64,000 bases of DNA from Futiania mangrovi (GTDB lineage: Bacteria; Pseudomonadota; Alphaproteobacteria; Futianiales; Futianiaceae). Made by a program: the position numbers and the translations under genes. The stretch lies in assembly GCF_024158125.1 (NCBI RefSeq), contig NZ_JAMZFT010000003.1, forward strand, positions 186,001-250,000. Reading direction: 5' to 3'. Below, piece after piece: positions 13,728-19,445 of the stretch. Below the pieces are notes generated by a model, which searched no databases, was not told where the DNA came from, and saw nothing but the letters and a program-made list of their open reading frames with translations. Within the stretch, counting starts at the first letter, position 1. Each line of letters opens with the position of its first letter.

Positions 13728-14693
13728 ATGAGCAGCATGACGGAAATTGACGCGGCCGACGCCCGCACCGGCCCGGCCAACCGCAAGCGGCGGGAGCGGC
13801 TGATGCGGCTTGCCACCTATGCCTCGGTGGCGAGCGCGTGTTTCCTCATACTCATCAAGCTGGGGGCGTGGATCGCGACGGGCTCGCTCGCCATGCTGTC
13901 CTCGCTGATCGACAGCGTGCTCGACGCGGCGGCGTCGATCGTGAACCTCGTGGCGGTGCGCCACGCGCTGGAGCCCGCGGACCACGAACACCGGTTCGGC
14001 CATGGCAAGGCGGAGCCGCTGGCGGGCCTCGGCCAGGCGGCGCTGATCTTCGGCTCGGCCCTCTTTCTGGTGTTCGAGGCGGGCGGACGGCTCTTCGCGC
14101 CCGTGCCGGTGACGCAATCGACGCTCGGCATCGTGGTGATCGTCGTGTCGATTGCGGTGACGCTCGGCCTCGTCCTGTTCCAGCGCCACGTGGTCCGCGT
14201 GACGAAATCCGTGGCGATCGCGGCGGATTCGCTCCACTACAAGGGCGACCTGCTGATGAACGCGGGCGTGATCCTCGCGCTCGTGCTGGCAGGCGTCTTC
14301 GACATGCCCATCGCCGACCCGATCATCGCGCTGATGATCGCGGGCTACATCGCCAACAGCGCGTGGTCCATCGTGCGGCAATCCCTCGACCAGTTGATGG
14401 ACAAGGAGTTTCCGGAGGAAGACCGCGCCCGCATCCGCCAGATCGCGACCTCGCACCGGGAGGTGGAGGAGATCCACGACCTGCGCACCCGGTCGTCCGG
14501 CACCTACAGCTTCATCCAGTTCCACCTGGAACTCGATCCGCACATGACGCTGGCGCGCGCCCACCGGATCAGCGACGAGGTGGAGGAGATGCTGCAGGAG
14601 GCGTTCCCCGACGCCGACATCTTCATCCACCAGGACCCCGCGGGCTCCGAAAGCGCGCCCGACCCCGACGCCCCGCCCCGCCTGCCGGTTTGA
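13728..14693 (+). CDS. Cation diffusion facilitator family transporter (FieF-like)
   Basis: Inner-membrane proton-coupled exporter of divalent metals such as Zn or Fe. 321 residues with about six helices in the first 230 and a cytosolic ferredoxin-like C-terminal domain. The metal site is visible as Asp62 and Asp66 in LIDSVLD and His170 and Asp174 in HYKGD, the DD-HD pattern of FieF/YiiP. The first TM (about 28-50) follows a basic N-terminus. A short extra C-terminal tail is rich in Asp and Pro. The stop codon is part of the first copy of a 13-bp tandem repeat (14691-14729). Confidence 0.9.
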   Translation: MSSMTEIDAADARTGPANRKRRERLMRLATYASVASACFLILIKLGAWIATGSLAMLSSLIDSVLDAAASIVNLVAVRHALEPADHEHRFGHGKAEPLAGLGQAALIFGSALFLVFEAGGRLFAPVPVTQSTLGIVVIVVSIAVTLGLVLFQRHVVRVTKSVAIAADSLHYKGDLLMNAGVILALVLAGVFDMPIADPIIALMIAGYIANSAWSIVRQSLDQLMDKEFPEEDRARIRQIATSHREVEEIHDLRTRSSGTYSFIQFHLELDPHMTLARAHRISDEVEEMLQEAFPDADIFIHQDPAGSESAPDPDAPPRLPV

Positions 14694-14729
14694 CTTGCCT
14701 GTCTGACTTGCCTGTCTGACTTGCCTGTC
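14691..14729. repeat. Three perfect 13-bp tandem repeats at the end of the cation transporter gene
   Basis: Three perfect copies of TGACTTGCCTGTC at 14691-14703, 14704-14716 and 14717-14729. The first copy includes the transporter TGA stop codon. Each unit begins with TGA. No secondary structure is obvious, so it is probably a slippage-prone minisatellite. Confidence 0.85.
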
Positions 14730-14833
14730 TGGGGGCTTGCGCGCACCTCGCTGCGGACGCGCCCGTCAGTTGTCCGCGACGGGGCCCCACCTCCGGCCGG
14801 TCCGCGCACCCTCGCCCTCGCCACGCCCCCCGG

Positions 14834-14862
14834 AAAAGGAAAAGGCCCGGCAGTGCCGGGCC
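14834..14862 (-). terminator. Rho-independent terminator of the Gly/His-rich gene
   Basis: A perfect 9-bp stem, GGCCCGGCA at 14844-14852 and TGCCGGGCC at 14854-14862, followed on the minus strand by the T-rich tract TTTTCCTTTT (complement of 14834-14843). It lies 35 nt after the minus-strand stop codon at 14897. Confidence 0.85.
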
Positions 14863-14896: not shown

Positions 14897-16036
14897 TCAG
14901 GCGGCGATGCCCAGGTAGCCGGCCAGTGCGGCCAGACCGTTGTGCACACCGTTCTGATCCTGCCGGTTGTCCTGACCGGCGTGGAAGGCGTTGACGCCAT
15001 CCAGACGCATGTTGCCGAAGTGACGCCAGGTGAAGGGATTGTTGCCCTCGCCCTGATCGTCCAGATTGTGCGCGGCGGAGTGGTTGTTGCCCAGCGACCC
15101 CATGATGGCCGCGAGGTCGTCCTGGTCCACGCCCAGCTTGGCCGCCAGCTGCGCACGGGCCGCCGGGTCGTTGGCGGCGGCGTACCACTCGGCGCTCGCC
15201 TCGTCGACGAGTGCCTCGTCGCCGCTCGCAAGCCGCGGGTCCATCGCCATGGCGATCCCGGCTTCGAGGCCGGTGATCTGCCCTTGCAGACCCACTTCCT
15301 CGGCGCCTTCGCCCGAACCCAGGGCACCGCTTTGGATCAGGCCCATCGCCTCCTGCCCGGACATGCCGAGGTACTTCTGCGCCAGGAAGTCGAGCCCGCC
15401 CATGGAGAGCTGGTAGCCGTTGTCCATCGCGGCGGCCGCGTCGAACGCCTGGTTGGCACCCAGCGGCATGCCCATCGCGCCGAACTCGTTCTCGCCGACG
15501 TGGGTGCCGTGGTTGGCGCCGCCATGCCCGCCGCCGCCGTGGCCACCCGCACCATGCGCGCCGCCGCCGTGGCCGCCCGCACCGTGGCTGTGGCCGCCGC
15601 CGCCATGCCCGCCGGCACCGTGCGCGCCGCCGCCCGCACCGCTGCCGCCCAGCATGTGGGCGCCGCCGCCGTGGCCGCCCGCACCGTGGCTGTGGCCGCC
15701 GGCGCCGCTCGACGGACCGCAGCATTCGGACGTCGCCGCCGCCGTCGCGGGGGCAGGCCCGCAACATTCCGAGGTGGCGCCCGCCGCCCCGAACCCGCCC
15801 TGCATGCCCAGCATGTGGGCCTGGCCGACCGTCGCCGGTCCGCCAATCCCGGCAGCCCCGAAGCCGCCCGCACCGCCGAGGCCATTGCCCGGCGTCATGA
15901 TGACGACGGTGGACCCGTTCGCTGCGGCATTCTGGGCCAGGGCGTATGCATTGTTGAAATCGTTGCCGCCGACGCCAGGCTGGAAACCCGTTCCCACACC
16001 TGACCCACCGGCATAGTGACCGTTCACGTGAGCCAT
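14897..16036 (-). CDS. Gly/His-rich low-complexity protein of unknown function
   Basis: 379 residues, not recognised. Residues about 1-85 are Gly/Asn-rich (N-terminus MAHVNGHYAGGSGVGTG). Two ATSECCGP motifs follow at about 88-115. A block near residues 115-185 is built from AGGHGGG, HSHG and GGHGGGAH units with well over a dozen histidines. The rest (about 190-379) is a more complex, Ala/Gly-rich, probably helical region with no stretch of clear membrane character. No signal peptide is seen. The paired Cys and clustered His could bind metals, which is inference. The start is the ATG preceded by GAGGAG, and a strong terminator follows, so this is a well-expressed single gene. A TTGACA -35-like box is at 16122-16127 on the minus strand. 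Confidence 0.7.
   Translation of the reverse strand: MAHVNGHYAGGSGVGTGFQPGVGGNDFNNAYALAQNAAANGSTVVIMTPGNGLGGAGGFGAAGIGGPATVGQAHMLGMQGGFGAAGATSECCGPAPATAAATSECCGPSSGAGGHSHGAGGHGGGAHMLGGSGAGGGAHGAGGHGGGGHSHGAGGHGGGAHGAGGHGGGGHGGANHGTHVGENEFGAMGMPLGANQAFDAAAAMDNGYQLSMGGLDFLAQKYLGMSGQEAMGLIQSGALGSGEGAEEVGLQGQITGLEAGIAMAMDPRLASGDEALVDEASAEWYAAANDPAARAQLAAKLGVDQDDLAAIMGSLGNNHSAAHNLDDQGEGNNPFTWRHFGNMRLDGVNAFHAGQDNRQDQNGVHNGLAALAGYLGIAA
15558..15599. repeat. 42-bp exact direct repeat inside the Gly/His-rich gene, copy 1
   Basis: Identical to 15660-15701 at an offset of 102 bp (34 codons). It encodes HSHGAGGHGGGAH-type sequence, showing that the His-rich block grew by in-frame duplication. Confidence 0.8.
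15660..15701. repeat. 42-bp exact direct repeat inside the Gly/His-rich gene, copy 2
   Basis: Second copy of the 15558-15599 repeat, in frame with the first. Confidence 0.8.
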
Positions 16037-16188
16037 TGTCTGTCTCCTCAAGCAACGCAAGACTGCGTACGATCAGATTAACCCAGTTCGTGCCGTTGTG
16101 AAACAGTTTTGTGCGCATCGGTGTCAAAAGCAGAGAATCCGCCGGATTTCGGCCCCCAACAATCCCAAACAGGCACAGGTGAGCCCCG

Positions 16189-18785: not shown

Positions 18786-19445
18786 ATGGCTTTCGCCGAC
18801 TTCAATACGGGCGGGATCGATGACTTCAGTTCGGGCGCGGACATCGCCCCGGTCGGCGGCGCCGACTTCCAGGTCGCGCTCGGAAACACTGCGGGCGGCA
18901 GCGACGGTATCGGCCTTACCACGCGGACAGGCGTGCCGAGTAACAATCAGTTCACCTTCACCGGCGACAACGCGGACGACCTGCGATCGGCGGCCGGAAA
19001 CGTGGTGCTCACCCTGTCTCCGGCACAGGTGGTCGACGTCGTGAGCATGGCTGAAGGCCAGGCTCCGGGCACGGACCTGACCCTGAACTCCGTCGTGTCG
19101 CTCGGCGGCGACAACGGCCACATCGCGATCTTCGACAGCCAGCAGAGGCCCGACGGCATCGGCCGGTACGACCCGCAGACCATCGGCGCCGCGGTGCATA
19201 TCGCCGAGGACGGCACCCTGTCCCCCGTCGACGCATCGTTCTACGGCGGCTCGCGGGACGGTGGCATGACCATGCGCTTCAACGATGCGGTTTCTGTCAA
19301 TGGCACGTCCCAGACGGGCGTGCAGATCGACATCGCGCGCACGTCGGCCGACAGCTTCGGCGGCAACAGCGTCATGGAAGCCCAGGTCTATGCGGGCGGG
19401 ACCTACTACCCGCTCGACGCCTCCACGGTCAGCTACCAGCACTGA
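18786..19445 (+). CDS. Orphan Gly/Asp/Ser-rich protein of unknown function
   Basis: 219 residues, not recognised. It has no signal peptide or membrane segment. Composition is high in Gly, Asp, Ala, Ser, Thr and Asn, with few Lys and Cys, and it alternates polar and hydrophobic residues like a beta-rich exported or surface protein (for example VSLGGDNGHIAIFDS and MTMRFNDAVSVNG). No RTX nonapeptides were found. The ATG at 18786 is selected by a strong GGAGGAAGG at 18774-18782, and a strong terminator follows. Like the Gly/His-rich gene it is a single-gene unit with a strong ribosome-binding site. Confidence 0.7.
   Translation: MAFADFNTGGIDDFSSGADIAPVGGADFQVALGNTAGGSDGIGLTTRTGVPSNNQFTFTGDNADDLRSAAGNVVLTLSPAQVVDVVSMAEGQAPGTDLTLNSVVSLGGDNGHIAIFDSQQRPDGIGRYDPQTIGAAVHIAEDGTLSPVDASFYGGSRDGGMTMRFNDAVSVNGTSQTGVQIDIARTSADSFGGNSVMEAQVYAGGTYYPLDASTVSYQH

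Follow-up and report, generated by a model that had tools for sequence, protein, structure and literature searches.

Two described sequence designs come close to the protein discussed here. In Hpn of gastric Helicobacter, Cys-Cys pairs accompany a His-rich stretch as proposed metal sites (PMC4671568), and in a His-Gly-Gly repeat known from elsewhere the His and the amides of the next two Gly residues bind Cu(II) (PMC6721516). A further point of comparison is the RTX proteins, whose C-terminus ends in [FLI][VAI], is depleted in Arg and Lys, and forms strand rather than helix (PMC8861453). Here we describe a 379-aa orphan protein of Futiania mangrovii FT118T, a bacterium from mangrove sediment (PMC9927469); its gene lies within the stretch of 64,000 nucleotides that we analysed (the window). 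Among several unproven readings of this protein, the best is that it is a lineage-restricted, soluble cytosolic protein which sequesters nickel, zinc, or copper—a reading drawn by analogy, to which we assign a probability of roughly 45%.

The gene occupies positions 14897..16036 on the minus strand, with its ATG at 16036 and its stop codon at 14897-14899, exactly as delimited in the first-pass annotation of this DNA. Codon-usage scoring, trained on confident genes neighbouring the target, gives +0.24 per codon in this frame and negative values in the other five (best rival -0.07); the frame is top-scoring in every 60-codon window, with the clearest margin in the C-terminal half, and codon usage is genome-typical throughout the C-terminal 200 residues. 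Two long spurious reading frames overlap the gene: a plus-strand frame of 375 aa and a minus-strand frame of 509 aa. A strong ribosome-binding site and a terminator had been noted previously, and both are present: GAGGAG lies at 16044..16049 (minus strand), 7 nt 5' of the ATG, and an intrinsic terminator with a 19-nt G+C hairpin and a U-rich tail lies at 14832..14862 (minus strand), 34 bp after the stop codon. This terminator, which reads GGCCCGGCACUGCCGGGCC then UUUUCCUUUUCC from 14862 to 14832 and has a fold z of -2.97, is absent from the output of a simple scanner. A strict scan for a promoter upstream of the gene returned none; an exact TTGACA at 16122..16127 (minus strand) is a weak candidate for a -35 element, unaccompanied by a convincing -10. 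On the strength of its codon usage, ribosome-binding site, and terminator, the target is a real, intact coding gene, and it is probably functional.

The composition of the protein changes in an ordered fashion along the chain. Residues 1-85 (15782..16036, minus strand) form a Gly/Ala-rich N-terminal region with no Lys or Arg and one acidic residue. Residues 86-112 (15701..15781, minus strand) contain two ATSECCGP motifs, at residues 87-94 and 101-108, which hold all four Cys of the protein as CC pairs at 91-92 and 105-106 and adjoin a Gly/His block (residues 113-180; 15497..15700, minus strand). The block is 54% Gly and contains 14 of the 22 His of the protein (5.8% overall), with no Lys, Arg, Asp, or Glu; HSHG occurs at residues 115 and 149, and HGGG at residues 122, 144, 156, and 166. 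The paired Cys motifs and the HGGG/HSHG block are therefore as first described, and a further repeated motif, AHMLG at residues 73 and 126, can be added to them. These patterns exceed what composition alone provides: HGGG is observed four times against 0.36 expected, and the highest His count in one 70-residue span is 14 against a shuffle mean of 7.7, with 14 also the largest count that any of 20,000 composition shuffles reached. The remainder of the chain, residues 181-379 plus the stop codon (14897..15496, minus strand), is an acidic, Ala/Gly/Met-rich C-terminal domain with a low-confidence helical prediction. This domain had been singled out for structure prediction and homolog searches, and yielded a low-confidence helical model with neither a homolog nor a PDB fold: two AlphaFold runs without an alignment gave mean pLDDT values of 39 and 46, with the C-terminus helical and the Gly/His block unstructured, and a Foldseek comparison of the C-terminal model with PDB folds found nothing below E = 2.4.

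The history of the block is recorded in its DNA. A repeat search and shuffle test located two exact copies of a 42-bp repeat, at 15660..15701 and 15558..15599 (both minus strand), which outrun the longest repeat produced by 300 synonymous-codon shuffles (maximum 35) as well as by 300 codon-order shuffles of the block (maximum 27). Since 42 bp lies beyond both maxima, the copies reflect duplication at the DNA level, not repetitive coding alone; the Gly/His block grew via in-frame DNA duplication, as the first-pass annotation had proposed.

If the protein does sequester metal, the uncharged Gly/His block would act as a flexible arm that binds ions through its His side chains and adjacent Gly backbone amides, with the two ECCGP pairs as putative thiol anchoring sites next to it; the acidic helical C-terminal domain (~200 aa) may fold, oligomerise, or dock to a partner. 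We infer a cytosolic location because no signal peptide is apparent, the lack of one having been noted in the original claim—on inspection, the first 40 residues contain no positive n-region or hydrophobic core, and the N-terminus has neither Lys/Arg nor a hydrophobic run. Potential ligand residues recur as sets of His, Cys, and Met (AHMLG twice, ECCGP twice, HGGG four times), a pattern that would suit metal binding more than a plain linker. Metal storage, as proposed earlier, is chemically plausible by analogy: Cu(II) sites of the His-Gly-Gly type and, within His-rich proteins, Cys-Cys pairs are documented elsewhere.

Genomic context bears on this reading in both directions. Urease alpha is encoded in the genome (968 bits), so the organism has a nickel demand, and ureABC has been reported for it (PMC9927469). 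The urease operon also encodes a UreE-like protein (L066 9404-9919) that contains 17 His and has a C-terminal tail rich in this residue, and a search of this genome for NiFe hydrogenase found none; an extra nickel store is therefore not required, which lowers our confidence in the metal reading. A FieF-type CDF cation-efflux gene adjoins the target in convergent orientation; it belongs to a different operon and so lends weak support to a metal role. A 13-bp tandem repeat, TGCCTGTCTGACT, runs for 3.8 copies across the end of this CDF gene (14683-14731). Upstream of the target no palindromic metal-regulator site is evident, the longest dyad being 5 bp. Also counting against metal sequestration are the want of a homolog or a recognised fold, the overall His content of 5.8%, and the fact that other K/R-poor proteins encoded in this genome contain Gly-rich blocks devoid of His; the Gly block of the target may reflect a habit of linker building in this organism and not a metal device. 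A fuller proposal—Futianiales-restricted sequestration through an internal His-Gly-Gly-Gly arm, ECCGP thiols, and a previously unseen helical domain, with a capacity that evolves by in-frame repeat duplication—is one we regard as doubtful.

Foremost among the rival explanations, though unlikely, is that the target is a signal-less surface or matrix protein exported by a type I or unconventional route, in which the Gly/His block would be a pH- or metal-responsive linker. Lys and Arg are absent from residues 1-220, and the total K+R is 1.9%, the lowest value in a sample of 332 genes from ~400 kb of the genome, where the median is 10.2% and the first percentile 3.3%; it is this scarcity, together with the missing signal peptide, that brings type I secretion into consideration. 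The genome does contain a PrtD-type type I ABC transporter (C1:1212350-1213966, 719.7 bits), and the signal-less RTX protein beside it is likewise K/R-poor (4.7%), but the transporter gene is unlinked to the target and lies on a different contig. At that locus (L035 9108-16656), the RTX-type protein has 1486 aa and is encoded upstream of the transporter, which also has a partner gene next to it. Nearer the target, 2.75 kb away at 18786-19445 (plus strand) in the window, is a second K/R-poor, signal-less orphan of 219 aa, with no Lys and a K+R of 3.2%; it has no relative in 385 Alphaproteobacteria genomes and is unmatched in Pfam and PADLOC. Against export, the target translation contains no RTX nonapeptides (GGxGxDxUx) and its C-terminus departs from the RTX form: it ends in GIAA, has three Arg in the last 60 residues, all of them within the last 43, and is helical in the low-confidence model. 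Because this C-terminal signature is missing, we retain export among the rivals without giving it first place; the secreted matrix protein that had been suggested, having neither a Sec-type signal nor a type I C-terminal signature, is disfavoured.

Next in probability, and again improbable, is that the target is a young orphan with little or no function, in which slippage on GC-rich repeats gave rise to the low-complexity block as a by-product. The exact 42-bp duplication and the 69.7% GC of the window speak for this explanation, as does the failure to find a relative in any collection searched, which upholds the orphan status first assigned to the gene. No relative was found in 96 related genomes, among plasmids, or in the PHROGs, PADLOC, and PDB sequence sets, and Pfam and NCBIfam gave no match of any kind. 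The C-terminal domain used as a query found no relative in 385 Alphaproteobacteria genomes, 398 Pseudomonadota genomes, or phages (searched with this query only); weak matches to it in Alphaproteobacteria were chance alignments inside unrelated frames. The His block likewise found no relative in the 385 Alphaproteobacteria genomes, where two marginal matches (E = 7.3e-4) were to Gly/His-rich sequence, and an N-terminal match (E = 2e-4) was rejected as aligning only Gly/Ala-rich sequence, in a gene whose product, read by eye, we take to be an SppA-like peptidase. Distant blastn matches in Sinorhizobium and Leisingera plasmids were to Pro-, Gly-, or Ala-rich low-complexity sequence. A scan of GTDB contigs seeded with peptide patterns gave 11 pattern matches, none of them confirmed. 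A DNA pattern of two spaced ECCGP motifs had no match in viral contigs and elsewhere matched solely the end of a Pirellula MAG contig, which is unrelated to the target; there (L037 1-130), about nine tandem ECCGP units are preceded by stop codons in that frame.

How much this absence says depends on what was searched. Genes restricted to one lineage are common, and the genome of F. mangrovii FT118T is the sole representative of Futianiales in the collections that we used, so that missing relatives say little on the age of the gene beyond its order, and its orphan status carries limited weight as evidence. From the same order, nine MAGs and SAGs have been named (PMC9927469); they may lie outside these collections. 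The first-pass annotation had held that a lack of homologs, together with a failure to detect the protein, would point to a spurious or decaying gene; no homologs were found in the collections searched, but the consensus ribosome-binding site, the strong terminator, the genome-typical codon usage across the C-terminal 200 residues, and the ordered change in composition along the chain all argue against a spurious or decaying frame and against a by-product of slippage.

Least likely of all is that the target is a cytosolic scaffold or disordered linker, with a helical domain, a Gly-rich assembly arm, and His and Cys of little importance—the unstructured prediction for the Gly/His block and a K/R-poor, signal-less EF-hand-like cluster with long Gly-rich repeat blocks devoid of His (C3:311051-315543) speak for it, but it leaves the paired ECCGP motifs and the His periodicity unexplained, and the target shares no homology with that cluster beyond low-complexity sequence. 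The cluster (L057 11051-15543) encodes four EF-hand-like signal-less proteins, three of them K/R-poor; two are nearly identical over their N-terminal 146 residues and also carry Gly-rich GATGGGTSANGS repeats, and the one used as a query had no relatives in 95 other genomes. Elsewhere in the genome (C2; L050 12776-16366), a 1196-aa signal-less, K/R-poor protein carries a GSGTGGGTGGG linker and has no Pfam match.

Only one member of the order Futianiales has been cultured. Should the target prove to hold metal, bacteria would have evolved one more metal sponge independently, here with a binding arm that is modular and can be expanded; otherwise the target clearly exemplifies the well-formed orphan genes of lineages that have been sampled poorly.

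Set beside known systems, the target resembles Helicobacter Hpn, Hpn-2, and the HspA tail, which serve in nickel sequestration, are lineage-restricted, and likewise have Cys-Cys pairs along with a His-rich stretch that is cytosolic and lacks a signal; the Hpn-type feature found in the target is a Cys-Cys motif near its His-rich part. Nickel-responsive expression under NikR and nickel binding in vitro and in vivo further characterise the Hpn and Hpn-2 storage proteins. In contrast to the target, with its 379 aa, 5.8% His, Gly-spaced ligands, and large extra domain, these are short and very His-dense—Helicobacter Hpn proteins are much shorter and His-denser than a chain of 379 aa with 22 His—and no sequence relation between them was detected. 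The tail of UreE, a flexible His-rich segment used in nickel handling, resembles the Gly/His block; however, UreE is a urease accessory protein encoded in the operon, whereas the target has no UreE domain or operon link and carries its block internally. The mammalian His-Gly-Gly-Gly Cu(II) octarepeat (PMC6721516) also places Gly after His, repeatedly, in a flexible Gly-rich segment, but the target has no Trp after the Gly run, a different spacing, and no homology to it, so that the analogy is chemical only. Type I secreted RTX proteins share with the target the missing N-terminal signal, the Gly-rich composition, and the very low Lys/Arg content; unlike them, the target is devoid of RTX nonapeptides, an RTX-type C-terminal signature, and a nearby transporter. 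Because defining features of Hpn and of RTX proteins were looked for in the target and not found, it is a member of neither group; by analogy, it would work like the Hpn and HspA tails without belonging to their family.
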